Shown here: one piece after another, positions 184 through 36,000 of the stretch
Numbering within the stretch: position 1 is the stretch's first letter
How the letters are laid out: each line of letters begins with the position of its first letter
From: an uncultured Lachnospiraceae bacterium
Lineage (GTDB): Bacteria; Bacillota; Clostridia; Lachnospirales; Lachnospiraceae
Direction of reading: 5' to 3'
NCBI GenBank assembly: GCA_947625015.1
Contig: CANQMR010000024.1
Coordinates: 1 to 54,180 of the forward strand
DNA: 54,180 nucleotides
Notes under the pieces: generated by a model
Database searches by the model: none
What the model saw: the letters and a program-made list of their open reading frames with translations, nothing else
What the model was told of the DNA's origin: nothing
Translations under genes and position numbers: made by a program

Positions 184-927
184 ATGGGGATTTTAACTGG
201 AAAAACAGCGGTTGTAACCGGAAGCAACCGCGGCATTGGCCGGGAGCTTGTCACACGATTTGCAGAAGAAGGAGCCGATATATGGGCTTGTGCAAGGACG
301 GAGACAGAGGAGTTTACTGGATTTATTGAGGAACTGGCGGGAAAACGGCAGGTCTTAATAGAACCGGTATATTTTGATTTGTCTGACAGCAATCAGATTA
401 AAGATGGAATCCAGAGGATTATTAAGAAAAAGAAACCTGTTGATATTTTGGTGAATAATGCGGGAATCGCCTATGGCGCAACATTTCAGATGACATCTCT
501 TGATAAACTGCGGGAAGTTTTTGAGATTAATTACTTTGCTCAGATTCAGATTATGCAGTTAATTTCCCGCTGTATGATGAAACAAAAGTCAGGCTCCATT
601 ATTAATATTGCGTCTGTGGGAGGCATAGAAGCGAATCCCGGTTATCTGGCTTATGGCTCCAGCAAGGCGGCGTTGATCTGGGCAACGAAGTGTCTTTCCA
701 AAGAAATGGGCAGCTACGGGGTGAGAGTAAATGCAGTGGCGCCCGGACTGACAGAAACCAGTATGGGACATTATAAATCCGAAGAGGAATTAGAACAGGT
801 TGTAAAGAGGACAAGTCTTAGGCGTATGGGGTCGCCGAAGGAGATTGCGGACGCTGTGCTGTATCTTGCGTCAGAGCAGGCTTCTTTTGTAACCGGGCAG
901 ATATTACAGGTAGATGGAGGCAGATAG
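184..927 (+). CDS. SDR-family oxidoreductase, FabG-like (Lux module 1)
   Basis: A 247-residue classical short-chain dehydrogenase/reductase, predicted to reduce a ketone or oxidise an alcohol with NAD(P)H in the cytoplasm. Visible features are the nucleotide motif TGSNRGIG near the N terminus, the NNAG motif, an active-site YGSSK (Tyr-x-x-x-Lys) and the C-terminal VDGG. The ATG at 184 is chosen over the GTG at 148 because GGAGAGAAGG ends 6 bases before it and because the length then equals the 247-residue paralogue at 6422. It is the first gene of the operon and sits 2 bases before the transketolase subunits. It resembles FabG, but no fatty-acid synthesis genes are near. A role in reducing a product of the adjoining transketolase/LuxC enzymes is inference. 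The family is certain, the substrate unknown. Confidence 0.9.
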   Translation: MGILTGKTAVVTGSNRGIGRELVTRFAEEGADIWACARTETEEFTGFIEELAGKRQVLIEPVYFDLSDSNQIKDGIQRIIKKKKPVDILVNNAGIAYGATFQMTSLDKLREVFEINYFAQIQIMQLISRCMMKQKSGSIINIASVGGIEANPGYLAYGSSKAALIWATKCLSKEMGSYGVRVNAVAPGLTETSMGHYKSEEELEQVVKRTSLRRMGSPKEIADAVLYLASEQASFVTGQILQVDGGR

Positions 928-929
928 CG

Positions 930-1793
930 ATGAGTGAAATGGTATCGGATAAGCACAGAACAATCGACTGTTCGGCACAAAAGGCGGAAGAATTGCGGGA
1001 GATGGCAAAGAGAATGAGGCTGGATGCTTTAGATATGGCCTTGTCAACCGGACAGAAGGGTTCTCATCTGGGCGGAAGCCTGTCCTGTATTGAAATCCTG
1101 GCGGTTTTGTATGGAGAGGTATTAAGAATTGATCCAAAGTGGCCACAATGGGAGGAACGGGATCGGTTCATCCCCAGTAAAAATCATTGTACATTGGCGC
1201 ATTTCCCGGCATTGGCTGAGGCCGGATATATTGATAAGTCGGAATTGGTTGAATTTACGAAAGATGGGGGAAGAATGACCGGATATCCCCGCAATTTAGA
1301 GATTGGGTTGGAATATTCCGGCGGAAGTCTGGGGATGGCTATTTCTGTTGGAATCGGTATTGCTCTGGCCTCCAGGGAACAGGGAAGAAGCAATCGGGTC
1401 TATGTAATGATGGGAGATGGCGAACTGAATGAGGGTTGCATTTGGGAAGCCTTTATGTCTGCCTATCAGTACCGTCTGGATAATCTGGTGGTAATCATTG
1501 ACCGTAACCACTTGTCTTATGATGGGGATACGGAGGAAGTTATGGCATTGGAGAGTCTGGAAGATAAAATGAAAGCATTTAACTGGCATACCATATGTTG
1601 CAACGGACATGATACAGGCGATTTATTGAGGGCATTTTCGGCAATCAAAGAGGGTGTGCCGAACATTATTATTGCAGATACGGTAAAGGGAAAGGGCGTT
1701 TCCTTTATTGAAAACCGGCGGGAGTGGCATCATTCCCGCATCAGTCAGGAACAGTATGAACAGGCAAGGCAGGAAGTGTTAGCCGCCGATTAA
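930..1793 (+). CDS. Transketolase N-terminal subunit (TPP-binding)
   Basis: A 287-residue homologue of the thiamine-diphosphate domain of transketolase, which moves a two-carbon ketol unit from a ketose to an aldehyde acceptor. The TPP/Mg motif GDGELNEG lies at residues 152-159, with the downstream Asn of the same motif near 173. The HLGGSLS segment near 46-52 is typical of transketolase. Full-length transketolase is about 650 residues, so this is the N-terminal part of a split enzyme whose partner is next. GGAGG at 916-920 precedes the ATG. Split transketolases occur in central metabolism of many anaerobes but also in special pathways, such as the Rif15A/15B pair of aminoshikimate synthesis. 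Position between an SDR and LuxE/LuxC argues for a dedicated role (inference). Confidence 0.9.
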   Translation: MSEMVSDKHRTIDCSAQKAEELREMAKRMRLDALDMALSTGQKGSHLGGSLSCIEILAVLYGEVLRIDPKWPQWEERDRFIPSKNHCTLAHFPALAEAGYIDKSELVEFTKDGGRMTGYPRNLEIGLEYSGGSLGMAISVGIGIALASREQGRSNRVYVMMGDGELNEGCIWEAFMSAYQYRLDNLVVIIDRNHLSYDGDTEEVMALESLEDKMKAFNWHTICCNGHDTGDLLRAFSAIKEGVPNIIIADTVKGKGVSFIENRREWHHSRISQEQYEQARQEVLAAD

Positions 1794-1815
1794 TGTGTTG
1801 ATGGAGGTTTTACAG

Positions 1816-2787
1816 ATGAATATAAGCAGAGCAAACATCAGGGCATGGTCAAGATTGGGACAACGGGGTTCCTTTTTTGGCATTGCCATGCCGGAGATTG
1901 CAAAGGATCGGGATAATTTAAAATTACTGACGGCGGATCTTTCCCTGTTGTCCGGAATGGACCGGTTTATTTCCGCGTATCCGGATAAGTTTTTGCAGGT
2001 GGGAATTGCAGAACAGAATATGATAGGCATTGCGGCGGGCCTGGCGATGGAGGGAGACTGCGTGTTTGCCACAACGTATGCTTCTTTTATTGCGGTGCGG
2101 AGTCTGGAGCATATCCGTCAGCATTTAGCGCACCTTCAGTGTAATGTAAAGATTATCGGCTCGGCTGCCGGCGTGGTGGCGGCGCGCTCCGGCGTGTCTC
2201 ATTGGGCCACAGAAGATCTGGCTTTTATGCGGGTACTGCCTAATCTTACGGTGCTGTCGGCGGCAGACAGTTTAGAGGCCATTAAAATGGCGATAAGCGC
2301 AGCCAATATGGAAGGTCCGGTATATATACGATTAAGCGGCGGGCTGGATTGTCCGGTGGTTTATCAGGAAGACTATGATTTTGAAATTGGGAAAATGATT
2401 ACGCTTCGGGAGGGCAGCGATGTGGCGATTCTTGCTACCGGATTAATGGTGGCGGAGGCATTAGAGGCGGCCCGCTTATTGGAAGAAAAAGGCATTTCCT
2501 GTACAGTGCTGAATGTTCATACGATTAAGCCGTTGGATAAGGAGCGGTTAGACCAGATATTTGACAATCACAAATTGTTGGTGACAGTTGAAGAGCATAA
2601 TGTATTGGGCGGCATGGGAAGTGCAGTGGCAGAATATAAAGCGACAAAGGAGAATGTACCCCGTCAGGTATTTCTGGGATTTCAGGATGCTTTTGCCAAG
2701 GCGGGTACGCAGAGATATATATGGGAACAGACGGGTCTGACCGGACCTCAGATTGCAGAACGGATTGAAAAAGAGGTTTTCTTATGA
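1816..2787 (+). CDS. Transketolase C-terminal subunit
   Basis: A 323-residue protein combining the pyrimidine-binding and C-terminal domains of transketolase; it completes the enzyme begun by the preceding gene. The VGIAEQNM segment carries the conserved catalytic Glu (residue 66), and the ATTYASF and GVSHWATED segments are typical of the family. The ATG at 1816 is preferred over in-frame GTG/TTG codons from 1795 because GGAGG (1803-1807) is well spaced before it. Its stop overlaps the next start as ATGA at 2784-2787, so translation is probably coupled to the LuxE gene. That coupling is the best sequence argument that transketolase and the acid-reducing pair act in one pathway. Confidence 0.9.
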   Translation: MNISRANIRAWSRLGQRGSFFGIAMPEIAKDRDNLKLLTADLSLLSGMDRFISAYPDKFLQVGIAEQNMIGIAAGLAMEGDCVFATTYASFIAVRSLEHIRQHLAHLQCNVKIIGSAAGVVAARSGVSHWATEDLAFMRVLPNLTVLSAADSLEAIKMAISAANMEGPVYIRLSGGLDCPVVYQEDYDFEIGKMITLREGSDVAILATGLMVAEALEAARLLEEKGISCTVLNVHTIKPLDKERLDQIFDNHKLLVTVEEHNVLGGMGSAVAEYKATKENVPRQVFLGFQDAFAKAGTQRYIWEQTGLTGPQIAERIEKEVFL

Positions 2788-3860
2788 TAGAGGATTTTTA
2801 TCAATATGAACCCTACCAATTGAATAAAGAGGAGAAATCGGCTTTGCTGACGGAAGAATTAAAAAGACTGGTAGCTCATCATATGCAAAACTGCCAGCCT
2901 TACAGAAATATGTTAGATGGACTGGGATTTTCTCTCTCGACGGTGAATACAGTAGAAGATATTCCATTTCTGCCGGTTCGTCTGTTTAAGGAGCTGGATT
3001 TGCTGAGTATTCCTAAAGATCAGGTGTTTAAGACGATGACATCATCAGGAACTACCGGCCAGGCAGTATCAAAGATATATGCGGATAAAGAGACGGCGAT
3101 GATGCAGCAGAAGGTAATGATTAAGATTCTTTCAGACTATTGGGGGAAAAAACGGCTGCCTATGCTGATTATTGATTCGCCGGCAGTAGTAAAAGACCGG
3201 AATAGCTTTACGGCCAGAGGGGCGGCAATTATCGGTCTACGGATTATGGCATCGGGAATGACATATGTGTTAAATGAGGATATGTCTTTAAATGTTCCGG
3301 CGCTCATGGATTTCCTGGAAAAAAATAAAGGCAGACGCTTTCTGATTTTTGGATTTACTTTTATGGTCTGGCAGCATTTTTATAAAGAACTTTGTAAGCT
3401 GGGAGGGGATATAGACCTGTCATTGGCCTGGCTGATGACCGGAGGCGGCTGGAAGAAATTGGAGACAGAGCAGATATCCCGTCAGGAGTTTAAGAAGTGT
3501 TTTAAGGAGTTGTGCGGTATAGAGCATTTTCTGGATCACTATGGCATGGTGGAGCAGACTGGATGTATTTATGCAGAGTGTGAATACGGGCATTTGCATG
3601 CCAGTATCTATTCGGATGTGATACCGAGAAGATATGAAGATTTCTCTCCCTGTGAAATAGGAGAAACGGGAATTTTGCAAACCGTTTCCGTTCTTCCTCA
3701 CTCCTATCCCGGACATTCTCTTCTGACGGAGGACGAGGGGCTGATTCTGGGAGAGGATGATTGTCCTTGTGGAAGAAAGGGCAAATATATTCAGATTCTC
3801 GGGCGGATAAAAAAGGCGGAACTGCGGGGGTGCAGCGACACCTATGCCGCCACAATATAG
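2784..3860 (+). CDS. LuxE-type acyl-protein synthetase
   Basis: A 358-residue member of the LuxE acyl-protein synthetase family. In luminous bacteria LuxE activates a fatty acid with ATP, holds it as a thioester on a cysteine near its C terminus and passes it to the LuxC reductase. Seen here: the Ser/Thr/Gly-rich adenylate loop TSSGTTG (86-92), the DHYGMVEQTG segment, and a C-terminal GCSDTYAA in which Cys350 lies 8 residues from the end, matching the position of the acylated Cys in Photobacterium LuxE. There is no luciferase (luxAB) or LuxD thioesterase in the window, so the substrate is probably not a light-reaction fatty acid. The start overlaps the previous stop. It is a paralogue of residues 1-360 of the 763-residue fusion at 7188. 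Confidence 0.85.
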   Translation: MIEDFYQYEPYQLNKEEKSALLTEELKRLVAHHMQNCQPYRNMLDGLGFSLSTVNTVEDIPFLPVRLFKELDLLSIPKDQVFKTMTSSGTTGQAVSKIYADKETAMMQQKVMIKILSDYWGKKRLPMLIIDSPAVVKDRNSFTARGAAIIGLRIMASGMTYVLNEDMSLNVPALMDFLEKNKGRRFLIFGFTFMVWQHFYKELCKLGGDIDLSLAWLMTGGGWKKLETEQISRQEFKKCFKELCGIEHFLDHYGMVEQTGCIYAECEYGHLHASIYSDVIPRRYEDFSPCEIGETGILQTVSVLPHSYPGHSLLTEDEGLILGEDDCPCGRKGKYIQILGRIKKAELRGCSDTYAATI

Positions 3861-3910
3861 ATTCATATATAAAAGGGCGTTTACATCGACAGGGTTTGGA
3901 GGGAAGCTGC

Positions 3911-5134
3911 ATGGGCGACACGATTAATACGGATGGGCAGGAGGCCCTGATTAATAAATTAAGATTTCTGGTAGGGAACGGGGATATACTTTGCGCCATG
4001 GAACAGATACCGGCAATGCCTGCGTTTTCAGATACCGTTATTTGCTTTTTGGACGCTTTGTCCCGGCGGCTGCGCCAGAATTTTCGGGCCAAAGAATACA
4101 ACGATATTTTGTCCTATGCATTCTGGGTGCGGAAGGCTTCTGTACAAAAAGAAAAGGAACGGCATATTAACTGGGAGAACCGCATGGGCAGAGGCGTCGC
4201 TTTTCATATTGCGCCCTCCAATGTGCCTGTTAATTTTGCAGTGTCTATGACTTCTGCGCTTTTGGCGGGAAACGCATGTATCCTTCGGGTTTCCAATAAG
4301 GAATTTCAACAGGTGGACATTGTCTGTGACGCCATAAATGCGCTATTGAAAGAGGAGTATAAGTCTTTACAGGGATATATCTGTATTGTAAAATATGAAC
4401 ATGATGGAGCGGTTACGCAGATGCTGTCCAATCTATGTGATGTTCGTGTCGTATGGGGAGGCAATCAGACCATTGGCCTGATTCGACAGGCTGCGCTGCC
4501 ACCCCGGGCAATCGAGATGGCTTTTGCAGACAGGTATTCAATCGCTTTGATTGACGCAGATTATTACTTAGGGCAGGATGCGGCGCAGGTTGCCAAGGAT
4601 TTTTATACCGATACTTATTACAGCGACCAGAACGCGTGCAGTTCTCCCAGACTGGTAATCTGGTTTGGGAACAAAAAGGCAGAGGCAAGAGAACGCTTTT
4701 GGCATGAATTGAGCGCGCTGGCTCATCGGCAATATGAGCTTTCCCCGGTGCAGGCAGTGGACAAACTGGATTCTTTTTTGCGGTTGGCGGCAGCCTGCGG
4801 AGAAGGTCAGATTATAGAAAGGGATTTGGAAGATAGTTATTTATATCGTATAGAAATGTCTGTGTTATATCCTGCAATTATGGATTATAAAGAGGCAGGC
4901 GGGTATTTCTTTGAGTATGAGGCAGATTCTTTAGAGGAGATGATTCCCGTATTAGGAAAAGCATGTCAAACTGTAGCGCTTTGCGGCGTTGATGAAGAAA
5001 CTGTGAGAACGATGATAAAGCAGAAAGGGGTCCGGGGAGTGGACCGGATTGTTCCTGTGGGCAAGACCATGGAACTATCTTTTCGCTGGGACGGATATGA
5101 TATGATTGAGACCATGAGCCGGATTGTCGGTTAA
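3911..5134 (+). CDS. LuxC-type acyl reductase (aldehyde-forming)
   Basis: A 407-residue member of the LuxC acyl-CoA/acyl-thioester reductase family, related to aldehyde dehydrogenases. It is expected to take the acyl group from LuxE onto its own cysteine and reduce it with NADPH to an aldehyde. Seen: the IAPSNVPVN segment near residues 100-108, and the catalytic-Cys motif QNACSSPR with Cys243. The frame is open from 3761, but GGAGGG at 3898-3903 sets the start at ATG 3911, 50 bases after the luxE stop. The extra N-terminal reading would have no counterpart in the fused paralogue. It lacks a partner luciferase. The aldehyde product may be the acceptor for the adjoining transketolase (inference). 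Confidence 0.85.
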   Translation: MGDTINTDGQEALINKLRFLVGNGDILCAMEQIPAMPAFSDTVICFLDALSRRLRQNFRAKEYNDILSYAFWVRKASVQKEKERHINWENRMGRGVAFHIAPSNVPVNFAVSMTSALLAGNACILRVSNKEFQQVDIVCDAINALLKEEYKSLQGYICIVKYEHDGAVTQMLSNLCDVRVVWGGNQTIGLIRQAALPPRAIEMAFADRYSIALIDADYYLGQDAAQVAKDFYTDTYYSDQNACSSPRLVIWFGNKKAEARERFWHELSALAHRQYELSPVQAVDKLDSFLRLAAACGEGQIIERDLEDSYLYRIEMSVLYPAIMDYKEAGGYFFEYEADSLEEMIPVLGKACQTVALCGVDEETVRTMIKQKGVRGVDRIVPVGKTMELSFRWDGYDMIETMSRIVG

Positions 5135-5160
5135 TTTATTATAATAGGAGGATACAAAAA

Positions 5161-6354
5161 GTGTTAGAAGAACAGATTATCTATCAAAGTATATTGCAGC
5201 AATTAGAAGATGATGTCAAGAAAGATTATCAGCAACTGTCAGATATTTGTAAAAGACAGCATAAGCAAATAGTCATATTTGGTGCGGGCACATATGGGAA
5301 GTATCTTTTGGAGCAAATTAAACAATATGGTTTAGTCCAGTACTTGTTAGGGTTTAGTGATAACGACAAAAATAAATTGGGGGGGGTGTTGGAAAATGTG
5401 CCAATATATTCTTTAGATTATTATATAGCGTCAAAAGAAAATTTGATTTTTTTGATTGGGTGTCAGAATAGTTGGTATGAAGAAATTTTACAACAATTAC
5501 AAAATGTAAAACAGGATGTATTTAAGTTTTCAAGGGAGCAAAAGTTACTGGCTTTGACTGCTGTAAGGAAAGACTTAATAATTAAAGAGTGTCCATGTGG
5601 AAGTGTACCATATTATTTATCTTACGGAAAAACATTATATGAAACGGAAGAAGGAAAAGAAAAATTAGACAAAGTATATACTATGCTAGAGGATGATATA
5701 AGTAAGAGGTTATATGATTTAAGAATTTCTTTTGTGCGCGATTGTAATATGAAAGCATTATTTCAAATGTATGATTTGTCAGCCAGATATGGATTTGATA
5801 AAGATTTATTAGAGTTTACTGAGCAAGAAGTATTTGTGGATTGTGGTGCGTTTATAGGAGATTCCATTCAGAACTTTTTACATAAGACGGGCGGACATTA
5901 TAAAAAAATATATGCCTTTGAACCCGATTTTGATAATTATAATAAGCTATTAGATTACCTTGAAAGGGAAAATATTTCTGCAATAACATATATGGCGGGT
6001 GTAGGTGAAAAAAATGAAAATTTAAGTTTTGACAATAGTGGACATGGGGGAGCTCTTTTTACGGAAGCTGGAGCGGATATTGTTCCTATTATGTCTTTAA
6101 ATGAAACATTCAAGTCAAATAGTGTTACCTATATAAAGATGGATATTGAAGGATTTGAAATGAAAGCGTTGCAAGGGGCAAAAGACATTATTGTGAGAGA
6201 CAAACCTAAACTTCATATTTCAATATATCATAAGCCTGAAGATTTATATGAAATTCCGTTATATTTATCTGAATTAGTTCCAGAATATCATTACAAACTT
6301 TGTCATCATACGGAAGCACCATGGGATACAGATTTATATGCTTGGACGGAATAA
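5161..6354 (+). CDS. FkbM-family SAM methyltransferase with N-terminal Rossmann-like domain
   Basis: A 397-residue protein. The C-terminal half (about 225-385) is an FkbM-type O-methyltransferase: VDCGAFIGDS is the SAM motif, YAFEPD follows, and KMDIEGFEMKALQGA is the family's signature. The N-terminal part contains IVIFGAGTYGKYLL (near residues 38-51), a nucleotide-binding-like segment often joined to FkbM domains in glycan loci. It probably methylates a sugar hydroxyl of the glycan. The start is GTG at 5161 behind AGGAGG (5146-5151). Base use is clearly more A/T rich than in the flanking luxC and SDR genes, which suggests separate acquisition. It is a paralogue of the gene at 13389. Confidence 0.8.
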   Translation: MLEEQIIYQSILQQLEDDVKKDYQQLSDICKRQHKQIVIFGAGTYGKYLLEQIKQYGLVQYLLGFSDNDKNKLGGVLENVPIYSLDYYIASKENLIFLIGCQNSWYEEILQQLQNVKQDVFKFSREQKLLALTAVRKDLIIKECPCGSVPYYLSYGKTLYETEEGKEKLDKVYTMLEDDISKRLYDLRISFVRDCNMKALFQMYDLSARYGFDKDLLEFTEQEVFVDCGAFIGDSIQNFLHKTGGHYKKIYAFEPDFDNYNKLLDYLERENISAITYMAGVGEKNENLSFDNSGHGGALFTEAGADIVPIMSLNETFKSNSVTYIKMDIEGFEMKALQGAKDIIVRDKPKLHISIYHKPEDLYEIPLYLSELVPEYHYKLCHHTEAPWDTDLYAWTE

Positions 6355-6421
6355 TGGATATTATCAATAATGCATACAGAAAATTATGTATAAATAAAAC
6401 ATAGATTAGGAGTGTGACAAA

Positions 6422-7165
6422 ATGTTGCTGGAAAAGAAATGTGCAGTGATTACAGGCTGTAACCGGGGAATTGGAAAGGCAATTTTGGATGCTTTTGTAA
6501 AAGCTGGGGCCGATGTATTTGCAGTGATTAGAAAAGAAAATACGGAATTTACAGAACACTGTCAGGCGCTTTCCAAGCAATATCATGTAGCTGTGGAGAT
6601 TGTGTATGCTGATTTTTTATCTGAGGAAGAGGTATTAAGCGCCGCAAAGGAGATTCTTAAGACAAAGAAAAAGATAGATGTGCTGGTAAATAATATTGGG
6701 ATTTCCAATCCACTTAACTCACTGGCGATGACCCGTATGCAGACTATACATGAAGCGTTTCAGATTAATTTGTTCTCTTCTATTCTGTTTACGCAGCAGA
6801 TTAGTAAAAGCATGATGCGAAAACAATCGGGGAGCATTGTATTTATTTCTTCCTCCGCTGCATTTGACGGAGGGGCAAATATTGAATATTCTGCAAGCAA
6901 GGCGGCAATTAACGGAGCAGTTAAGCGGCTGGCCATTGAACTGGGGAATTTTGGAATCCGGGTTAATGCAGTGGCGCCGGGGCTTACGGCTACGGATATG
7001 GGTAACTCCATGAGCGAGGAGGATGAAGCGATTGCTTTGAGTATGAATGTGATGAAACGAAAAGGCGAGCCTGAGGAGATTGCAGATGTGGTATTATTTT
7101 TGGGTTCGGATATGTCCAGATTTATGACCGGACAGGTGCTGCGGGTTGATGGCGGCCTGCGGTGA
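6422..7165 (+). CDS. SDR-family oxidoreductase, FabG-like (Lux module 2)
   Basis: A 247-residue short-chain dehydrogenase, the same length as the paralogue at 184. It shows TGCNRGIG for cofactor binding, NNIG, the YSASK active-site Tyr/Lys and a VDGG C-terminal segment. AGGAG at 6408-6412 precedes the ATG. It stands 22 bases before the LuxE-LuxC fusion and so repeats the SDR-LuxE-LuxC arrangement of the first module, but without transketolase. It probably reduces a carbonyl made by, or related to, the fusion enzyme's product (inference). The Campylobacter flagellar gene ptmA also encodes an SDR, so a sugar substrate is an alternative. Confidence 0.88.
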   Translation: MLLEKKCAVITGCNRGIGKAILDAFVKAGADVFAVIRKENTEFTEHCQALSKQYHVAVEIVYADFLSEEEVLSAAKEILKTKKKIDVLVNNIGISNPLNSLAMTRMQTIHEAFQINLFSSILFTQQISKSMMRKQSGSIVFISSSAAFDGGANIEYSASKAAINGAVKRLAIELGNFGIRVNAVAPGLTATDMGNSMSEEDEAIALSMNVMKRKGEPEEIADVVLFLGSDMSRFMTGQVLRVDGGLR

Positions 7166-7187
7166 GATTGAATGAAGAGGAGTACAC

Positions 7188-9479
7188 ATGGCATTTGAAG
7201 ATATTTTAGCGGTTCCGCCATATTCGCTGAATCGGGAAGAGAAGAATAAAATATTGACTGAACGACTGACCGAATTGACAGACAGACATAGAAATGCCTG
7301 TGTGGAATATGACAGGATTTTGCGGGCGGTGGGATACGAACATGCGGTTACTTATAAAGACATCCCTTTTCTTCCCGTCCGCCTGTTCAAGGAGCGTTCA
7401 TTGAGAAGTGTGCCCGAAGAGGAGGTTGTCAAGACCATGACTTCCTCCGGTACATCCGGTCAGCAGGTGTCACAGATATATTTAGATAAGATTACAGCAT
7501 CTAACCAGCAAAAGGTCATGGCGAAAATTGTGGCAGACTTCACTGGTTCTTCCAGAATGCCCATGATTATATTGGACTGTCCGTCGGTACTTAAGGATCG
7601 TAAAAAATTCTCTGCCCGGGGAGCCGGGATACTGGGTTTTTCTATTTTTGGCTCAAAAAAAATTTACGCGCTCAATGATGATATGCAATTAGATATAGAA
7701 GGGTTGAAAGCGTTTTTAGAAAAGTATAAGGGACAGCGCATATTACTCTTTGGCTTTACCTTTATGATCTGGCAGCATTTTTATCAGGAGTTGGTAAACT
7801 ATAAAGAAAAGACGGGTGAGTCTATAGACTTATCCAATGGAATACTGATTCATGGCGGCGGTTGGAAAAAGCTGATTTCCGAGGCGGTAAGCCCGGAAGA
7901 ATTTCATGACAGATTAAAGGAAATCTGTGGCTTGGAGCATATTCATGATTATTATGGCATGGTGGAACAGACAGGGTGTATCTATATGCAGTGCGAATGT
8001 GGACATCTGCACGCCAGTAATTTTTCAGATGTGATTATCCGGAACCCTGTAGATTTTTCCGAATGTCAGATAGGAGAAAAGGGAATCATACAGGTAGTAT
8101 CTACAATTCCTGAATCTTATCCGGGACATTCCCTGTTGACAGAGGACGAGGGGATTATTGTAGGGGAGGATGACTGTGCCTGTGGACGGAAAGGCAAATA
8201 TTTCCGGGTTCTCGGCCGAATAAAAAATGCCGAGATACGCGGCTGTAGTGATACCTATGCCGCAGACCACAGCAGAGGGGCGGCGGACGCCCCAGATCAC
8301 CGGATTGCTTTTCTAATCGGAGATGAAACACAGCTTGAGGAGATGAAGGAACTGCCACCCATGAAACCATTCTCGCCGGAGATATTGGATTTTTTGGCGG
8401 ATTTATCGAGAGAACTTATGTCCTCTTCCGAGGCAAAATCATATCCCGATATTATGACATTAGGGTTTTGGTTGAGAAATTCTTCTTTGGAGCAGTTGAG
8501 AAAAAGATTTATAAAGGATTCTTTGCTCCGGTTTGGAAGAGGCGTTGTCTTTCATGTGGCGCCATCCAATGTTCCGGTTAACTACGCCTATTCGTTGTTT
8601 GCCGGGTTGCTTTGTGGAAATGCGAATATTGTCCGGGTGCCGTCAAAAAATTTTCCGCAGATAAATATCATTAATCAGGCGATGACAAAGGTTTTTCAGC
8701 GGCATGAAAATATAAAGCCTTATATCATGCTGGTTCGTTATGAGAGAGACAAAGAAATTAACGACCGGCTTTCTGCGCTTTGCGATGTGAGAGTGATTTG
8801 GGGAGGGGATATGACAATTTCCGCCCTGCGGGAATCTGCCCTGCCGCCTAGAAGTACGGAAATTACTTTTGCCGACAGATATTCGCTGGCAGTGATAGAT
8901 GCAGATGCTTATTTGGAAATTGCCGATAAGGAAAGGACTGCCGCAGATTTCTATAATGATACCTACCTTTCCGATCAAAATGCCTGTACAAGTCCCAGAC
9001 TGGTGATTTGGACCGGCAGACAGAAAGCGGAGGCAGGGCAGAAGTTTTGGGAGGAGCTTTTGAATGTGGCAAAGGAAAAGTATTTATTCCAGCCGATACA
9101 GAGCATTAATAAACTTTCAACAATATATAAAGCAGCCATGGATCATGCAGGGGGAATTAAGGTATTGTCCGGAGGCGGCAATATGTTAATGCGGGTACAA
9201 CTGGAGAGCCTGCCGCCGGATATTATGGATTATCGGGGAGATTCCGGCTGTTTTTATGAGTACGAATGTGACGATATACTGGATTTAAAAGCTTTATGTA
9301 AGGATAACCGATGTCAGACTATCGGATTGGTGGGGGATTTGAACATATTGCAGCCTTTGTTGGAATCGGGCATTAAGGGCATAGACAGGGTGGTTCGGCT
9401 GGGTAGGACAATGGATTTCGATCTTCTTTGGGACGGATATGATCTTACTGAGAGACTGACCAGGACCATTACAATATAA
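7188..9479 (+). CDS. LuxE-LuxC fusion: acyl-protein synthetase joined to acyl reductase
   Basis: A 763-residue single chain holding both halves of an acid-to-aldehyde reductase. Residues 1-360 are LuxE-like (TSSGTSG loop, DYYGMVEQTG) and end with GCSDTYAA, keeping the acyl-accepting Cys353. A hydrophilic linker of about 15 residues follows. From about 380 the chain is LuxC-like, with VAPSNVPVN and the catalytic motif QNACTSPR (Cys600). Both catalytic cysteines survive, so the fusion is probably active and hands the acyl group over within one chain. AGGAG (7178-7182) precedes the ATG. The two domains match the separate genes at 2784 and 3911 along their lengths, with divergence starting exactly after GCSDTYAA. 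It is preceded by an SDR and followed by an AMP-forming ligase. Confidence 0.88.
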   Translation: MAFEDILAVPPYSLNREEKNKILTERLTELTDRHRNACVEYDRILRAVGYEHAVTYKDIPFLPVRLFKERSLRSVPEEEVVKTMTSSGTSGQQVSQIYLDKITASNQQKVMAKIVADFTGSSRMPMIILDCPSVLKDRKKFSARGAGILGFSIFGSKKIYALNDDMQLDIEGLKAFLEKYKGQRILLFGFTFMIWQHFYQELVNYKEKTGESIDLSNGILIHGGGWKKLISEAVSPEEFHDRLKEICGLEHIHDYYGMVEQTGCIYMQCECGHLHASNFSDVIIRNPVDFSECQIGEKGIIQVVSTIPESYPGHSLLTEDEGIIVGEDDCACGRKGKYFRVLGRIKNAEIRGCSDTYAADHSRGAADAPDHRIAFLIGDETQLEEMKELPPMKPFSPEILDFLADLSRELMSSSEAKSYPDIMTLGFWLRNSSLEQLRKRFIKDSLLRFGRGVVFHVAPSNVPVNYAYSLFAGLLCGNANIVRVPSKNFPQINIINQAMTKVFQRHENIKPYIMLVRYERDKEINDRLSALCDVRVIWGGDMTISALRESALPPRSTEITFADRYSLAVIDADAYLEIADKERTAADFYNDTYLSDQNACTSPRLVIWTGRQKAEAGQKFWEELLNVAKEKYLFQPIQSINKLSTIYKAAMDHAGGIKVLSGGGNMLMRVQLESLPPDIMDYRGDSGCFYEYECDDILDLKALCKDNRCQTIGLVGDLNILQPLLESGIKGIDRVVRLGRTMDFDLLWDGYDLTERLTRTITI

Positions 9480-9498
9480 CAGGACAGGATGTGATTAA

Positions 9499-10911
9499 AT
9501 GTGGGATTTAGAAAAATATAACGAAAGACCGGCAATAATTGATGAATTTCATCCGGCATTGTCTTATGGGCGGCTTTACGACATCGGGAATGAAATCGCA
9601 GAAATAGTGGGCGGCCGGGCCTTGGTGGTATCTTTGTGCAGTAATACCATCGGTTCTGTAGCAGGTTATATATCATTTATTAATCATCGGATTGTACCGA
9701 TTATGCTCAGCGTGCATTTGGAAAAAGATATGCTTGACAATTTATTGGGCATTTATTGTCCGCAGTTTATATGGCTGCCTAAGGACATAGCAGAGGATTT
9801 TTCTGCTTTCGAGGCGGTTTATGAATTATATGATTATGTGCTGTTAAGAACTTCTTATGAAAAAGTCTACGAATTATATTCTGAACTGGGGCTGTTATTG
9901 ACTACTTCCGGCTCTACGGGAAGTCCTAAATTTGTCCGCCAAAGCTATACAAATATTCTGGCTAATGCCAGATCTATTGCCCAATATCTCAATTTGGATG
10001 AAAAGGAACGGCCCATAACAACACTGCCAATGAATTATACCTATGGACTGTCCATTATCAACAGTCATCTTTTGGTAGGAGCAACTCTTTTGGTGACGGA
10101 TTGTTCTTTGATGCAGAAGGAGTTTTGGAGTTTCTTTAAGGCGCAGGAGGCTACTTCCTTTGGCGGGGTTCCGTATACCTATGAAATGCTTGATAAGTTA
10201 AGATTTACGAGAATGGAGCTGCCAAGTCTTAAGACGATGACTCAGGCAGGAGGCAAGCTGATTCCGGAACTTCATGCGAAGTTTGCAGAATATGCAAAAA
10301 AGAATCACAAACAGTTTGTGGTAATGTATGGACAATGTGAGGCGACCGCCCGGATGGGGTATCTCCCTCCGGAGAAGGCGGTTGAGAAATGCGGCTCAAT
10401 GGGAATTGCCATACCCGGCGGCAAATTTAAATTAATTGATGTTGACGGACGGGAGATCGTAACGCCGCACACTACCGGCGAGTTGGAATATGAAGGGGAA
10501 AATGTTACTCTGGGTTATGCAGAGTGCGGTGAGGATTTAAAGAAGGCAGACGAGCGGAAAGGGATTCTTCAGACTGGGGATATGGCCCAATTTGATGAAG
10601 ATGGATATTATTATATTGTGGGAAGGAAGAAGCGGTTTCTGAAAATATATGGAAACCGGGTTAATCTTGATGAAATAGACCGTATGATTAAAGGGGCTTT
10701 TTCATGTTTAGACTGTGCCAGTACCGGGGTGGACGACCATATGTATATTTTCCTGACAGACCAAAAAAAAGCAGAAGAGGTAAAAGCCTATGTTGTGGGG
10801 AAAACAGGATTGAATCCGGCGGCGTTTCAAACGGTTATAATAGATGAAATTCCTAAGAATGACGCAGGTAAAGTGTTATATAAAGAATTAAAATACGGAG
10901 GCAGAGTTTAG
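9499..10911 (+). CDS. AMP-forming acyl/aryl ligase (adenylate-forming family)
   Basis: A 470-residue ANL-superfamily enzyme that should join a carboxylic acid to AMP and then to a thiol or amine acceptor. Seen: the P-loop TTSGSTGSPK (135-144), the YGQCEATARMGY segment (the usual YGxTE), QTGDMAQFDEDGYY, and the C-terminal KNDAGK with the catalytic Lys458. At 470 residues it is shorter than CoA ligases (about 520) and close to the ligases that load carrier proteins or amino groups. No acyl carrier protein was found in the window. It starts 19 bases after the LuxE-LuxC fusion and ends 3 bases before pseF, linking the acyl modules to nonulosonic acid genes. The substrate is unknown. Confidence 0.85.
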   Translation: MWDLEKYNERPAIIDEFHPALSYGRLYDIGNEIAEIVGGRALVVSLCSNTIGSVAGYISFINHRIVPIMLSVHLEKDMLDNLLGIYCPQFIWLPKDIAEDFSAFEAVYELYDYVLLRTSYEKVYELYSELGLLLTTSGSTGSPKFVRQSYTNILANARSIAQYLNLDEKERPITTLPMNYTYGLSIINSHLLVGATLLVTDCSLMQKEFWSFFKAQEATSFGGVPYTYEMLDKLRFTRMELPSLKTMTQAGGKLIPELHAKFAEYAKKNHKQFVVMYGQCEATARMGYLPPEKAVEKCGSMGIAIPGGKFKLIDVDGREIVTPHTTGELEYEGENVTLGYAECGEDLKKADERKGILQTGDMAQFDEDGYYYIVGRKKRFLKIYGNRVNLDEIDRMIKGAFSCLDCASTGVDDHMYIFLTDQKKAEEVKAYVVGKTGLNPAAFQTVIIDEIPKNDAGKVLYKELKYGGRV

Positions 10912-10914: not shown

Positions 10915-11613
10915 ATGGACGGAAGAAAAATTGCAGTGATCACCGCCAGAGGCGGCAGCAAACGGATACCTAAAAAAAACATTAAGGATTTCTGCGGCAA
11001 ACCAATCATTGCTTATTCTATAGAAGCCGCTATAGATTCACAGGTATTTGACGAGGTTATGGTTTCCACAGACAGCGGGGAGATTGCCGAGATTGCCAGA
11101 CAATATGGCGCTAATGTGCCCTTTATGCGGAGTGCAAAGACAGCGGATGACCATGCCACAACCAATGATGTGTTGGTGGAGGTATTTTCCGAATATGAAA
11201 AGCGGGGACAGCATTTTGAACTGGCAGTATGTATATATCCCACTGCGCCGTTCGTCACAGCGGAGAAATTGAGGGAGGCAGTTGCGTTGATGGAAAGTGA
11301 ACAGGTGGACGCCATTACTCCAGTGGTACGATTTTCTTTTCCTCCGCAGCGTGCTTTTGTGGTAAGGAACGGTTATTTGCAGTATCAGTTTCCGGAAAAT
11401 GCACCTGTCCGTTCTCAGGATTTAGAACCAATCTATCATGACTGTGGACAGTTCTATGTGATGAAGGTCGACAATGTTCTTAATGGGAAACCGGTTGTTA
11501 AAAATGTACCGCTTATTGTGTCCGAATTAGAGGTTCAGGATATTGATAATGAGGAAGACTGGAAGATTGCGGAGATGAAGTACAGATATATGAGGGAACG
11601 GTATGGAAAGTGA
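10915..11613 (+). CDS. pseF: Pseudaminic acid cytidylyltransferase PseF
   Basis: A 232-residue CMP-sugar synthetase of the NeuA family; it activates a nonulosonic acid with CTP. The N-terminal ARGGSKRIPKKN (11-22) is the nucleotide-binding signature. SIYSIEAA-like and YPTAPF segments and FPPQRAFV are typical of the pseudaminic branch. Assignment to PseF rather than LegF rests on this similarity and on its place in the same operon as pseI, pseC, pseG and pseB; the second CMP-transferase in the window (32561) sits with the leg genes. GGAGG lies 13 bases before the ATG. Its end overlaps the next gene by 11 bases, so translation is probably coupled. Confidence 0.85.
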   Translation: MDGRKIAVITARGGSKRIPKKNIKDFCGKPIIAYSIEAAIDSQVFDEVMVSTDSGEIAEIARQYGANVPFMRSAKTADDHATTNDVLVEVFSEYEKRGQHFELAVCIYPTAPFVTAEKLREAVALMESEQVDAITPVVRFSFPPQRAFVVRNGYLQYQFPENAPVRSQDLEPIYHDCGQFYVMKVDNVLNGKPVVKNVPLIVSELEVQDIDNEEDWKIAEMKYRYMRERYGK

Positions 11614-12268
11614 AATGCAGATAGATGGAACAGAGGTATACCGGTATGTGTTTCATCCCATAGATTCCAATATGTATATGATGATAAAAAATGGGGAGGC
11701 GCTGGTTGTTGATCCCCATGTAAATGCTAAGGCAGATGCCCTGTTAGAAAAATGCGGGATTCATAAGGTATGTATTTTATTGACGCACGAGCATTTTGAC
11801 CATATATCGGGCGTGAATCATTTTCAGGAGAGGTGGGACTGTACGGTAATCTGTTCCGAGGCGGCCAGAGAACGGCTGCCGGAACCGGATAAGAACCTTT
11901 CCGCCTATTGTGATGTGCTGTTAATGGACAAGGTTAAGGGCGGAACTGATTTTGATAAATCATATAGCTGTTATGGAGATACAGGCTTTGAAGGAGAGTA
12001 TGAGATGGAATGGAACGGCTGGCATATCCGAATGGTGCATACGCCGGGACATTCTAAGGGCAGCATATGTATTATAATTAACGGGAGTTATATCTTTACC
12101 GGGGATAGTCTGGTGGACGGCAATCCGATTATTACCCGGCTGCCCGGGGGCAGCAAAGAGGAATATCTGGCGGTAACGAAGCCCTTTTTGGAGGGCTTGG
12201 AAAAGGATATGTTTGTATTTCCGGGACATGGTAAGGAGCATCCCTTAAGCTGTTTTGAGATTGCGTAA
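11603..12268 (+). CDS. Metallo-beta-lactamase-fold hydrolase (glyoxalase II-like)
   Basis: A 221-residue member of the metallo-beta-lactamase superfamily. The zinc motif THEHFDH lies at 61-67, followed by HTPGHSKG, FTGDSLV and FPGHGKEHP, which together supply the usual metal ligands of thioester or ester hydrolases such as glyoxalase II. It overlaps the end of pseF and precedes pseI, a place not filled by a known step of pseudaminic acid synthesis. GAGG at 11591-11595 favours the first ATG, with a second in-frame ATG at 11615. Possible roles, both inferred, are clearing misloaded acyl thioesters from the LuxE/ligase enzymes or removing an acyl group from the sugar. Confidence 0.8.
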   Translation: MESEMQIDGTEVYRYVFHPIDSNMYMMIKNGEALVVDPHVNAKADALLEKCGIHKVCILLTHEHFDHISGVNHFQERWDCTVICSEAARERLPEPDKNLSAYCDVLLMDKVKGGTDFDKSYSCYGDTGFEGEYEMEWNGWHIRMVHTPGHSKGSICIIINGSYIFTGDSLVDGNPIITRLPGGSKEEYLAVTKPFLEGLEKDMFVFPGHGKEHPLSCFEIA

Positions 12269-12310
12269 GTTAGACATAAGGATATTGTGAGAGACAGGGA
12301 GGTGTTGGAT

Positions 12311-13363
12311 TTGAACAAGGAGATTCAAATTGATGGGCGGATGATCAGTGAAAATGCGCCTGCTTATATTATTGCGGAGATGTCGGCCAATCATCTGATG
12401 AGTTTTGACAGGGCAAAGGAGATCATATACCGGCTGAAGGATACGGGTGCGGATGCGGTTAAACTACAGACCTATACGGCGGATACCATTACGATTGACT
12501 GTGATAATGAAGAATTTCAGCTGCATGGCGGCCTGTGGGACGGAGAAACCCTGTATACGCTGTACCAAAAGGCGTATACGCCCTGGGAGTGGCAGAAGGA
12601 ATTGATGGAATATGCCAACAGCTTAGGCCTTGCCTGTTTTTCTTCTCCTTTTGACCTTACCGCTGTGGATTTTATGGAGGAAATCGGGATGCCCGCATAT
12701 AAGGTGGCATCTTACGAAATCAACGATATCCCTATGATTCGCAAGATTGCAGCAACCGGCAAACCGGTTATCATCTCTACGGGAACAGCTCATTTAGAGG
12801 ATATGGAAAGAGCATTGCAGACTTGTAAACAGGAGGGAAATGAAAATGTAATCCTGTTAAAATGTACCTCCGCTTACCCCTGTCCCTATGAGGATATGAA
12901 TCTGAGAACAATTCCGTTGATGGAGAGCACCTTTGATTGCATGGCGGGACTTTCCGACCATACGCTGGGCAGCGAGGTTGCTTTGGGCGGCATTGCTTTA
13001 GGGGCGAAGGTAATTGAAAAGCATGTAACCATAAAGCGTTCGGATGGCGGTCCGGACGGCGCTTTCTCGATGGAGATGGAGGAGTTTGCGGATATGGTAC
13101 GGCAGATTCGCAATCTGGAAAAGGCGCTTGGGAAGGCTACCTTTGAGTTGACGGCAAAGCAGGAGGACGCAAGAAATGGCACCCGTTCCCTTTATGTGGT
13201 AAAGGATATGGAGGCCGGGGAAGAATTTACCGCTGAAAATGTCCGCTCCATCCGCCCGGGAAGGGGAATGCATACGATGCATTATGAGGAGATTTTAGGG
13301 AAAAAGGCGGTTAAGGCGTTGAAAAAGGGTACGCCTTTGTCGTGGAATGTAGTAAAACCATAA
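12311..13363 (+). CDS. pseI: Pseudaminic acid synthase PseI
   Basis: About 350 residues; a NeuB-family synthase condensing a 6-deoxy-2,4-diacylamino hexose with phosphoenolpyruvate to give the nine-carbon acid. Near the N terminus is IIAEMSANH; SSPFDLTAVDF and STGTAH follow, then LSDHTLG and EKHVTIKRSDGGPDGAFS. GGPDGAFS is typical of PseI, whereas NeuB/LegI read GPDHKAS, as the second synthase in this window does. The C terminus has an antifreeze-like SAF domain (ENVRSIRPGRG). The frame is open from GTG 12287. I favour TTG 12311 because GGGAGG ends 8 bases before it; this start is uncertain. Confidence 0.88.
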   Translation: MNKEIQIDGRMISENAPAYIIAEMSANHLMSFDRAKEIIYRLKDTGADAVKLQTYTADTITIDCDNEEFQLHGGLWDGETLYTLYQKAYTPWEWQKELMEYANSLGLACFSSPFDLTAVDFMEEIGMPAYKVASYEINDIPMIRKIAATGKPVIISTGTAHLEDMERALQTCKQEGNENVILLKCTSAYPCPYEDMNLRTIPLMESTFDCMAGLSDHTLGSEVALGGIALGAKVIEKHVTIKRSDGGPDGAFSMEMEEFADMVRQIRNLEKALGKATFELTAKQEDARNGTRSLYVVKDMEAGEEFTAENVRSIRPGRGMHTMHYEEILGKKAVKALKKGTPLSWNVVKP

Positions 13364-13388
13364 AAAGATTTTGAAAAGGAGATATAAG

Positions 13389-14525
13389 ATGAATATTGAA
13401 AAGTTTCATAAGGAATTAATTGAAGAATTGGATAATTTGATAAATATATTTATTCATACTTTGAAGGAAAAGAATAAAAAAATTGTGATTTGGGGAACAG
13501 GAAAATTCGGAAGAGTCGTTTATAATTCATTAAAAACAGTTTCCGAAATCCCAGAGATAATAGGTTTTGGAGATAATAATATAGCAAATAATAAAAAGAA
13601 GTTGTATAATCTTACAATAAACAATGTTGATGCTTATGTAAATCATCCTGAAATATTATTTGTAATATGCAGTAAATGGGAAAATGATATAAGAAAGCAA
13701 TTTGACAAACTTAATTTAGAATATACTGTTGATGCATGGGCTTTTTTGTTTAAAGATATGTTAATTGAATACTATCAAAATTATGGACGAGATGTATTTC
13801 CGCATAGTAATAATTTTTATTATTTTTGTAACAAAGCCTCTTTACTTTATATAAAAAACGATGTAAAAGAGCAGTTAAAATCTGTTATGGAATTGACAGC
13901 AGAAAATAAGTACATTTCTATTTATCAAAAGCGATTGGATTTAATTTTAAAGGGAGAATTGTCGTTAGCTCGAGATTATTATTCAAAAGAATTAGAATAT
14001 TTTGATAAAAATTTTTATAATTCTAAGCATATAACTAATGCAGAAACCTATGTGGATTGTGGAGGTTATATAGGTGATACAGTTGAAGATTTTATAAATA
14101 TGGTAGGAAATAATAACTATCGTAAAATATATGTGTATGAGCCAGATCCCGATATTTATCAGAAACTTACACAATGTGTTACGGCGCATCACTTTAAAAA
14201 TGTTATTTTAAAACAATGTGCTGTTGGAAATAAAAAAATAGATAATTACTCAGAATTTCCTACAGTAAAGCTAGATGATGATATAGATGAAGAAGTTACG
14301 TGGATTAAAATGGATATAGAGGGATTCGAATTAGCTGCATTGCAAGGAGCAAAAGAAATAATTACGAAGTATCATCCTAAATTAGCAATTTGCTTATATC
14401 ATTGTGTAGAGGATATTTATAAAATTCCTTTGTATATACATGAATTGGTTCCGGAATATCGATTTAAATTTGGACAGCATTTTAGGGGACATTGGGATTT
14501 TGTTTTATATGCTGATATATATTGA
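13389..14525 (+). CDS. FkbM-family SAM methyltransferase, second copy
   Basis: A 378-residue paralogue of the gene at 5161 with the same order: an N-terminal nucleotide-binding-like segment (IVIWGTGKFGRVVY) and a C-terminal FkbM domain with VDCGGYIGDT, YVYEPDPD and KMDIEGFELAALQGA. It probably O-methylates a glycan sugar. AGGAGAT (13377-13383) selects ATG 13389 over the in-frame TTG at 13371. Base use is strikingly A/T rich beside pseI and pseC. It splits the pse genes, and the bases after its stop hold a deletion scar of another gene, both signs of local rearrangement. Confidence 0.8.
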   Translation: MNIEKFHKELIEELDNLINIFIHTLKEKNKKIVIWGTGKFGRVVYNSLKTVSEIPEIIGFGDNNIANNKKKLYNLTINNVDAYVNHPEILFVICSKWENDIRKQFDKLNLEYTVDAWAFLFKDMLIEYYQNYGRDVFPHSNNFYYFCNKASLLYIKNDVKEQLKSVMELTAENKYISIYQKRLDLILKGELSLARDYYSKELEYFDKNFYNSKHITNAETYVDCGGYIGDTVEDFINMVGNNNYRKIYVYEPDPDIYQKLTQCVTAHHFKNVILKQCAVGNKKIDNYSEFPTVKLDDDIDEEVTWIKMDIEGFELAALQGAKEIITKYHPKLAICLYHCVEDIYKIPLYIHELVPEYRFKFGQHFRGHWDFVLYADIY

Positions 14526-28348: not shown

Positions 28349-28349
28349 A

Positions 28350-29351: not shown

Positions 29352-29365
29352 ATTCACCATACCTT

Positions 29366-31439: not shown

Positions 31440-31442
31440 AAC

Positions 31443-33253: not shown

Positions 33254-33294
33254 ACATAGTCACCCGATTATTTTTGTGTAAAAAAACTGATATT

Positions 33295-33323
33295 ATTATA
33301 TCGCAATTCCAGTTTGTATTCAA
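33295..33323 (-). promoter_or_regulatory. Internal promoter before legF
   Basis: On the - strand TTGAAT (33323-33318) and TATAAT (33300-33295) are 17 bases apart. The spacer and flanks closely resemble the promoter before legB: both read TTTTATTGAATAC before the spacer and end it with TTGCGA. The similarity suggests that this is a duplicated promoter block rather than chance. Confidence 0.7.
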
Positions 33324-33360
33324 TAAAATTGTCTTGTGGTTTGTTAGGTATGAAGATATT

Positions 33361-34530: not shown

Positions 34531-34542
34531 AGCAACGGCTCC

Positions 34543-35751: not shown

Positions 35752-35800
35752 TTATTATCCTCTTTCTTTAGTTAAATATCAGAATAAAATTTTCTTGTTT

Positions 35801-35829: not shown

Positions 35830-35934
35830 TAAAAATTATGGATCTTATTTATTATGAAAAATGTGAAACATTATAGGTATATGCATTTTTAAATTATATT
35901 TTTTGTAAATTTCATTAATTATATAAAAATATTC

Positions 35935-35963: not shown

Positions 35964-36000
35964 AATAGTATGTATTATTACAAGAATGGGGAATAGTCTG

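Follow-up and report, generated by a model that had tools for sequence, protein, structure and literature searches.

In a 54,180-nucleotide stretch of DNA from an uncultured Lachnospiraceae bacterium (contig CANQMR010000024.1, here C24, of a 2.82 Mb genome that is 98% complete; hereafter the window), we examined a plus-strand gene run at positions 184-10911 in which two sets of genes for homologs of LuxE and LuxC adjoin a pseudaminic acid (Pse) locus. The LuxE/LuxC module proved to be real, widespread and specialised for carboxylate reduction, its most likely job being to supply a short hydroxylated side chain for surface amino sugars. For the window, we tentatively propose, with somewhat less than even confidence, that the run constitutes a dedicated two-stage pathway. 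It would build a short, hydroxylated acyl side chain destined for an amino sugar, which in this case is most likely the pseudaminic acid of flagellin. A flagellar role is well supported for the window, yet it is not the sole role of the module.

The run opens with a FabG-like short-chain dehydrogenase/reductase (SDR1, 184-927, open frame from 148; Pfam adh_short_C2, 199 bits), followed by a transketolase encoded in two halves. The N-terminal, thiamine pyrophosphate (TPP)-binding subunit (930-1793; PF00456, 127 bits) scores 248 bits against the NCBIfam transketolase model, below the whole-protein cut-off because only half of the protein is present, and is followed by the C-terminal subunit (1795-2787; PF02780, 95 bits, and PF02779, 88 bits). 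By these three Pfam matches, the pair contains both the TPP-binding and the pyrimidine domains. An acyl-protein synthetase, LuxE1 (2784-3860; PF04443, 176 bits, cut-off 24.9), and an acyl-protein thioester reductase, LuxC1 (3905-5134; PF05893, 116 bits, cut-off 21), come next; the LuxC1 frame opens at 3761, and its start was placed at 3905 because LuxE1 stops at 3860. An FkbM-family methyltransferase with a weakly NeuD-like N-terminal stretch (5161-6354; PF05050, 60 bits; TIGR01444, 68 bits) separates this module from the second, which consists of SDR2 (6422-7165; adh_short_C2, 189 bits) and a LuxE2-LuxC2 fusion (7188-9479) with PF04443 in its N-terminal half (178 bits) and PF05893 in its C-terminal half (101 bits). 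Between the fusion and pseF lies an AMP-forming acyl ligase (AMP-ligase, 9499-10911; PF00501, 115 bits), predicted to load an acyl carrier protein (ACP). The two SDR/LuxE/LuxC modules that the original prediction had placed at 184-5134 and 6422-9479 were thus borne out by the Pfam matches. Its gene list for the first module had overlooked the split transketolase (930-2787), the main clue to the use of the aldehyde. It had also described the modules as running directly into pseF and the Maf locus; an island with pse, Maf-type and FliB genes does follow, but the AMP-ligase intervenes before pseF.

LuxE and LuxC of luminous bacteria act on fatty acids. The cysteine of the RGCSD motif, which we take to be the acyl acceptor of LuxE, is present in all 79 aligned sequences, both window copies included, and aligns with the GCS of the LuxE in entry 7XC6, the fatty acid reductase LuxCDE. 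The cysteine of the QNAC motif, presumably the catalytic residue of LuxC, is kept in 86 of 87 aligned sequences, the single exception being cut off, and aligns with the LuxC of 7XC6, as does LuxC1. The retention of both cysteines, as stated in the original prediction, was confirmed. LuxE and LuxC of this entry were the only solved relatives found, and the likeness to LuxCDE lies in the two families and their catalytic cysteines. The present system differs from LuxCDE of luminous bacteria in that one pair is fused, an AMP-ligase and a predicted ACP stand alongside, and all scores fall far under the cut-offs of the long-chain equivalogs NF052244/NF052251 (75.8 and 60.4 bits for the LuxE proteins versus 550; 54.7 and 46.7 bits for the LuxC proteins versus 750). 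Luciferase is missing as well: PF00296 (Bac_luciferase) had no match in the whole genome, in a search that was positive in 10 of 14 control genomes. This agrees with the claim that luxA and luxB are absent; as for luxD, also claimed to be absent, none was named among the 20 scanned proteins of the run 184-23917, and no genome-wide search for it was made. A metallo-beta-lactamase (MBL)-fold hydrolase (11603-12268; PF00753, 72 bits; GloB-like, 59 bits, below cut-off), a predicted thioesterase of a family other than that of LuxD, possibly stands in LuxD's place.

Named genomes were scanned for relatives of the fusion. Of 166 stretches, 160 encode relatives, and the best 80, representing 79 loci, were kept (fusion loci). 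These were compared, through bait searches within about 10 kb, with 40 LuxE loci of genomes of the same family (family loci) and with 20 control loci, whose matches to the same Pfam model are distant and partial and were taken for other ligases. In the order fusion/family/control, we counted ACP in 68/18/0 loci, AMP-ligase in 76/23/4, LuxC in 78/24/0, SDR in 55/11/0, aminotransferase in 40/6/0, transketolase N in 34/6/0, NeuB in 22/6/0, thioesterase in 38/3/0, acetolactate-synthase-like (ALS-like) enzymes in 13/0/0, MBL hydrolase in 6/6/1 and GT2 in 29/1/1; LuxE and LuxC are present in the fusion loci by construction, the set having been found with the fusion. LuxE and LuxC were scored as one frame in 16 of the 79 fusion loci and are separate neighbours in most others. 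By title, the fusion loci belong mostly to Lachnospiraceae, Oscillospiraceae and other Clostridia, with two from Treponema, eight from Bacteroidales/Prevotella/Paludibacteraceae and one from Salinivirgaceae. The closest named relative among them is an uncultured Lachnospiraceae metagenome-assembled genome, L011, whose fusion is 97% identical; near-identical genomes may be left out of this comparison. Counting the present genome, LuxE (E < 1e-30) occurs in 50 of 397 genomes of the family, and LuxE at a score of at least 164 bits in 6 of 398 genomes of the phylum. Named plasmids carry the core as well: that of Rhizobium has all five genes (ACP, SDR, AMP-ligase, LuxE, LuxC) with a split transketolase, a glycan cluster of Deinococcus reads ACP-SDR-AMP-LuxE-LuxC-acetyltransferase, and that of Ponticoccus has ACP-SDR-AMP-LuxE with LuxC a few genes further on the other strand. 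No transketolase is annotated in reach of the Deinococcus and Ponticoccus cores. The set of ACP, AMP-ligase, LuxE, LuxC and SDR thus recurs across Firmicutes, Bacteroidota, Treponema, Deinococcus and alphaproteobacteria, an observation that is new here, as are the carboligase partners, the LuxE1 clade and the dehydratase context described below.

A single role for all LuxE-family proteins was considered and rejected. LuxC is lacking in 16 of the 40 family loci, and in all 16 the LuxE falls outside the branch (98/97 in a 75-row tree) that holds the glycan-associated rows and the rows associated with 4-hydroxybutyryl-CoA dehydratase (AbfD); the LuxE of L153, L156 and L164, which do have LuxC, likewise lies outside. 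The loci with no LuxC in reach are L150, L151, L154, L157-L161, L163, L166-L169, L190, L191 and L209.

The module is tied to glycan loci. At least one of 15 glycan markers lies within about 10 kb in 59 of the 68 long fusion loci (12 kb or more, after 11 shorter ones were dropped), compared with 1 of 20 control loci. In the window, the modules continue into an island in which PseF (CMP-pseudaminic acid synthetase, 10915-11613; TIGR03584, 284 bits), PseI (pseudaminic acid synthase, 12287-13363; TIGR03586, 482 bits), the aminotransferase PseC (14678-15808; TIGR03588, 510 bits), PseG (17170-18240; TIGR03590, 192 bits) and PseB (18230-19219; TIGR03589, 524 bits) all score above cut-off. They are accompanied by a Maf-type flagellin glycosyltransferase (19277-20926; MptE-like PF01973, 139 bits; Maf_flag10_N, 27.5 bits; PseD-like, 106 bits, below cut-off) and by FliB, a flagellin lysine-N-methylase (23941-25059; NF038110, 216 bits, cut-off 85; no Pfam match), all on the plus strand. 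In another genome of the family, at locus L194, a single run on one strand comprises flagellin, aminotransferase, radical SAM, LuxC, LuxE, AMP-ligase, ACP, transketolase, two SDRs, NeuC, NeuB, NeuD and Maf.

We also considered whether the module decorates another surface glycan of the same island, capsule-like or containing legionaminic acid (Leg), rather than flagellin; this we judge to be rather unlikely. Relatives of the module occur in Bacteroidales loci (Bacteroidales, Prevotella and Paludibacteraceae are, to our knowledge, groups without flagella), a gene read as an undecaprenyl-sugar transferase is present in 16 of 79 fusion and 2 of 40 family loci, flagellin lies within reach in only 2 of the 119 fusion and family loci together, and Leg-type genes are encoded on the minus strand of the window. 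Against this stand the Maf-type and FliB genes of the window island, the position of the ACP gene behind flagellin and Maf-type genes (see below) and the L194 module, which sits between flagellin and Maf. The claim that the modules make an aldehyde or alcohol for a flagellar sugar thus held in that the acid-to-aldehyde step is associated with glycan loci, with flagellin and Maf in L194; it did not hold as a restriction to flagella, given the Bacteroidales-type loci, the rarity of flagellin in reach and the LuxE+LuxC loci without glycan markers that are described below.

The partners of LuxE and LuxC point to a use for the aldehyde. Transketolase, ALS-like and NeuB families can join a donor to an aldehyde. 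We analysed 92 LuxE+LuxC loci, comprising the 68 long fusion loci and 24 of the 40 family loci. Transketolase (38 loci) and the ALS-like enzyme (12 loci) occur together in one of them (p 0.013, kinship between loci ignored). SDR accompanies transketolase in 37 of 38 loci, and NeuB accompanies the ALS-like enzyme in 10 of 12 (p 3e-5, kinship again ignored), a divergent NeuB being its direct neighbour in eight; transketolase and NeuB are found together in six. A type-II thioesterase (35 loci) and the MBL hydrolase (12 loci) never co-occur among the 92 (p 0.003, with the same disregard of kinship), and LDH-like genes are found with thioesterase in 14 of 16 loci. A thiamine carboligase, either transketolase or ALS-like, is present in 43 of the 68 long fusion loci, and a carboligase or NeuB in 50. 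Four divergent NeuB proteins, two beside an ALS-like gene and two beside an SDR, scored 293-335 with the NeuB model (cut-off 400) and 249-277 with the PseI model (cut-off 340), unlike the ordinary NeuB proteins of the window and L047, which pass a cut-off. This subfamily, with the motifs NSSHNG and KFQSWS, includes L012:6556-7587, L047:6566-7597, L041:4285-5286, L031:3050-4117 and others. The possibility that the window transketolase is the housekeeping copy was rejected, as a second split copy is present in the genome; the further copies are a 314-residue frame with 41% identity on contig C29 and a 626-residue frame with 30% identity on contig C4.

The two modules had been treated as equals in the original prediction. 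Two LuxE-LuxC pairs were found within reach in seven loci: the window with its close relative L011, L193, L081, L041, L036, L062 and L042. A quick tree with 114 rows places one LuxE from each two-pair locus in a single clade of eight rows that includes the window LuxE1 (support 1.0 with L042, 0.88 without it). This clade was found only in two-pair loci, with transketolase or NeuB directly beside LuxE or separated from it only by SDR genes. The other LuxE lies outside the clade, next to an AMP-ligase in all seven loci and next to an ACP-like gene in five. In a slower tree of 75 of the 130 rows (30 fusion-relative rows drawn at random), whose bootstrap had not settled, the five clade members present form a starred set (100/99). 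The LuxE proteins therefore belong to different clades with different partners, and recent duplication of the modules was rejected on the same ground. Because the LuxE1 clade is confined to two-pair loci, near transketolase or a divergent NeuB, the modules of the window look like two stages, and like old, specialised partners. In the first 2 kb of L007 and L010, a second LuxC at the locus edge just precedes an ALS-like gene, its partner LuxE not being in the tree; both are probably further loci with two modules.

Flagellar sugar islands with comparable gene sets have been described; in the available text of the open-licence literature, we found no report of their product. The islands of Aeromonas group II polar flagella (98 strains) combine pse genes and maf-2 with luxE, luxC, acp, fabG and a gene for an AMP-dependent synthetase (PMC7874193). 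As described, they share the 3-oxoacyl-ACP reductase, AMP-dependent synthetase, luxE, luxC, pse and maf-type genes with the window (for the ACP, see below), but with one luxE and one luxC, and the accessible parts of the report mention no transketolase. In Enterobacteriaceae flagellin islands, LuxE was reported in 73 strains and LuxC in 80; they are accompanied by Acp, FabG and CaiC ligases, and the excerpts available do not mention transketolase (PMC4875605). A luxE/luxC flagellin glycosylation island has also been published for Dickeya (PMC7575072); it shares nearly the whole window gene set, including a split transketolase, two FabG proteins and FkbM, but, in the cluster as printed, has one luxE/luxC pair, adjoining vioA, maa and rfbC, and no pse gene. 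The conjunction of luxE, luxC, AMP-ligase and FabG-like SDR seen in the Aeromonas group II and Dickeya islands is found in the window, as are nonulosonic acid genes (PseB, C, F, G and I) together with a Maf-type protein. With luxE/luxC islands in print in these three publications, the claim of a new pathway type is not supported, although the portions available contain no chemistry. Keyword searches of open-licence papers for a published pairing of transketolase with a flagellin glycosylation island or with an acyl-protein synthetase returned none, and neither luxE nor transketolase turned up in papers on the nonulosonic loci of Clostridium and Vibrionaceae.

The Aeromonas and Enterobacteriaceae islands have been read, in the text available, as making a liposugar (PMC7874193, PMC4875605). 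Here LuxE and LuxC, with ACP, FabG and ligase, would process a fatty acid into a lipid-like chain on the glycan, an explanation that we hold to be quite improbable for the window. It would suit the established preference of the luminous enzymes, and KASIII-like and FabZ-like genes do lie near 6 and 17, respectively, of the 79 fusion relatives. However, both pairs are far under the long-chain equivalog cut-offs, though distance alone may account for this, and they are accompanied by transketolase, NeuB-like and ALS-like enzymes or, in other loci, by AbfD.

The AbfD context provided a clue to the substrate. The dehydratase gene lies beside the core in 7 of the 24 family LuxE+LuxC loci, and in none of the 79 fusion or 20 control loci; the one product tested scored 826 bits to 1U8V. 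Four of the seven also contain 4-hydroxybutyrate CoA-transferase (AbfT), the one tested matching 3EH7 and 3GK7. Of 36 listed HpaB-family genes, seven lie within 12 kb of LuxE against 0.14 expected, a rough figure that assumes uniform 3 Mb genomes and counts only genomes with both genes; six are among the AbfD loci and the seventh is in G768. The AbfD loci (L203, L205, L206, L155, L162, L152 and L200, in the last of which the dehydratase is a partial gene at a contig end) have the AMP-ligase-LuxE-LuxC core and an ACP-like gene by AbfD; all 15 glycan markers are absent from their surroundings. They look like an aldehyde-forming step in gut C4 fermentation loci; labels assigned by reading suggest thiolase and dehydrogenase genes near the core in L203 and L155, and L203 reads as a full C4-CoA pathway. 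This context hints at C4 acids. That the module belongs to energy or carbon metabolism and lies in glycan islands by chance seems very improbable to us: the AbfD and CoA-transferase genes of these family loci, with the thiolase and dehydrogenase genes as read, would fit such a role, but AbfD is near none of the fusion loci, and glycan markers accompany most of the long ones.

Reported glycan masses were also compared. By arithmetic, Pse bearing a single acetyl and a single C4H6O3 acyl (102.03) gives 376.148. For Aeromonas AH-3, whose island has the core, the part of the report available gives a Pse derivative of 376.14 Da and an additional, unassigned moiety of 102 Da (PMC7874193). Pse with one acetyl (274.117) fits the inner unit in Shewanella, where the accessible text reports a nitrogen-free C9H16O7 outer addition on a 274 Da sugar that requires NeuB-like, TPP and SDR genes (PMC3765264). 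Pse with one acetyl and C7H12O5 gives 450.185 (C8H16O4, the alternative, gives 450.221), and the T. denticola flagellin glycan has been given, in the portion available, as 450.2 Da (PMC9481697). The fits are suggestive and are not unique. In Shewanella oneidensis, the available description of sfmABCDE indicates that a TPP enzyme, a FabG-like SDR and a methyltransferase are needed for a flagellin modification with a nitrogen-free addition on a nonulosonic acid, three kinds of gene that the window also has; it includes a NeuB-like gene and an ATP-grasp gene and does not mention LuxE or LuxC (PMC3765264). A Sfm-type NeuB-like partner of the TPP enzyme was not found in the present genome.

These data bear on a simpler pathway, in which a C4 diacid or hydroxy-diacid has one of its carboxylates reduced to an alcohol by LuxE/LuxC and SDR, the product, 4-hydroxybutyryl or dihydroxybutyryl, is loaded on ACP and transferred, and transketolase serves another branch. 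We rate such an omega-hydroxyacyl maker as possible but unlikely. The five-gene core does occur with no annotated transketolase in Deinococcus and Ponticoccus, and the available text mentions none for the Aeromonas islands; the AH-3 sugar and its 102 Da moiety match Pse(Ac)(C4H6O3) and C4H6O3, respectively, and AbfD and AbfT would provide the context. On the other hand, transketolase is present in the window and in the loci of 34 of 79 relatives, almost always with SDR, LuxE1 goes with carboligases, and the mass match shares the lack of uniqueness noted above.

No ACP was seen among the window frames to 26 kb. The only close ACP of the genome, 69% identical to the ACP-like gene of the module, is on contig C31, downstream of flagellin and Maf-type genes. 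The gene run before it appears to be flagellar, the flagellar names beyond flagellin and Maf-type coming from our reading of the sequence. After the ACP come a weakly WecD-like acyltransferase, an HpcH/HpaI-family aldolase, an ALS-like enzyme and a methyltransferase cut at the contig end. Since no PseH over the cut-off was found in the genome, the WecD-like protein is the leading candidate for acylation of the PseC product. A join from C31 to the window start at SDR1 was looked for, but neither a shared end nor a bridging relative was found. Also on C31, behind flagellin, two tandem genes (L148:1135-2322 and 2338-3552) have near-identical C-terminal halves and different N-terminal halves, and look like a recombining pair.

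Taking these results together, we propose the following two-stage pathway. In stage A, comprising SDR2, the LuxE2-LuxC2 fusion (the predicted core acid-to-aldehyde enzyme), the AMP-ligase, the C31 ACP and the MBL hydrolase, LuxE would activate a short acid of about four carbons with ATP and hand the thioester to LuxC for reduction to the aldehyde, the hydrolase acting in the role of LuxD by releasing the acid from ACP. In stage B, comprising SDR1, the split transketolase and LuxE1-LuxC1, the transketolase would give a two-carbon ketol unit to the aldehyde, SDR1 would reduce the ketone and LuxE1-LuxC1 would reduce a second carboxylate. The finished acid would be loaded onto ACP by the AMP-ligase; the WecD-like enzyme, replacing the missing PseH, would then attach it at the 4-amino position of the PseC product, and the FkbM enzymes may O-methylate the side chain. 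The genes, their cysteines, the recurring core, the carboligase partners, the LuxE clades and the lack of a PseH match above cut-off are direct observations; the substrate, order of steps, product and target sugar are what we infer from them.

Several points weigh against this pathway. A free carboxylate after the transketolase step requires a starting acid with a second carboxylate, which we assume. The ACP is called from a motif and from an NCBIfam score of 23 bits out of 66, which is weak, with no Pfam match; the WecD-like acyltransferase is called from 20 of 219 bits. A connection between C31 and the window was sought through a shared contig end or a bridging relative and none was found, so that adjacency is not claimed; in L011, the SDR is preceded by different genes, which read as a LicD-like gene and a regulator. 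This genome has both a transketolase (window) and an ALS-like gene (C31), contrary to the general pattern, and no divergent NeuB, the query retrieving only PseI and Leg-type NeuB. Neither thiamine carboligase is present in 25 of the 68 long fusion loci, and the p values for partners take no account of kinship. Of the 24 family LuxE+LuxC loci, 15 have no glycan marker; seven of these adjoin AbfD and three have a LuxE outside the main branch. The AbfD and glycan loci are different contexts, between which a shared C4 substrate would be an extrapolation, and the likeness to Shewanella is drawn from description, not from sequence comparison of the genes.

A broader and more doubtful proposition is that carboxylate reduction on LuxE/LuxC thioesters, with lengthening by a carboligase (C2) or a divergent NeuB (C3), is a widespread unrecognised route to polyhydroxylated acyl groups. 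It would replace polyketide or fatty acid logic, with the two LuxE-LuxC clades specialised for successive rounds, and, if true, would account for flagellin substituents that mass spectrometry has detected but the texts available leave unassigned, in Aeromonas (C4H6O3), in Treponema denticola (450.2 Da, fitting C7H12O5) and in Shewanella (C9H16O7). If the module makes them, substituent masses such as 102 or 236 Da would gain a named gene set and a testable chemistry. LuxE/LuxC, best known from bioluminescence, would then prove to be of general use for reducing carboxylates in bacterial surface chemistry; gut bacteria would gain a way to vary flagella, which hosts may sense.

Other features of the window are as follows. 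A sigma-70-like promoter candidate precedes SDR1 on the plus strand (84-112; TTGACA-17-TATAGT, 11/12 matches), a weak call as 36 such sites were found in 15 kb versus 37 expected by shuffling; terminator-like sites are somewhat commoner than in shuffles (18 versus 10.7 expected, standard deviation 3.6). On the same strand, a second FkbM-family methyltransferase (13371-14525; TIGR01444, 59 bits) lies between pseI and pseC, a methyltransferase-like protein with weak matches (15812-17161) between pseC and pseG, and two glycosyltransferase-like genes between the Maf-type gene and fliB. At 26294-28369, one protein of 691 residues has a hexapeptide acyltransferase in one half and, in the other, an SP_1767-type glycosyltransferase that scores slightly under cut-off. 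The region 28350-37071, mostly on the minus strand, encodes a NeuB-type synthase, NeuC and a LegC-type aminotransferase above cut-off, together with a dehydratase-like gene and a nucleotidyltransferase, and is a second nonulosonic route, probably leading to legionaminic acid.

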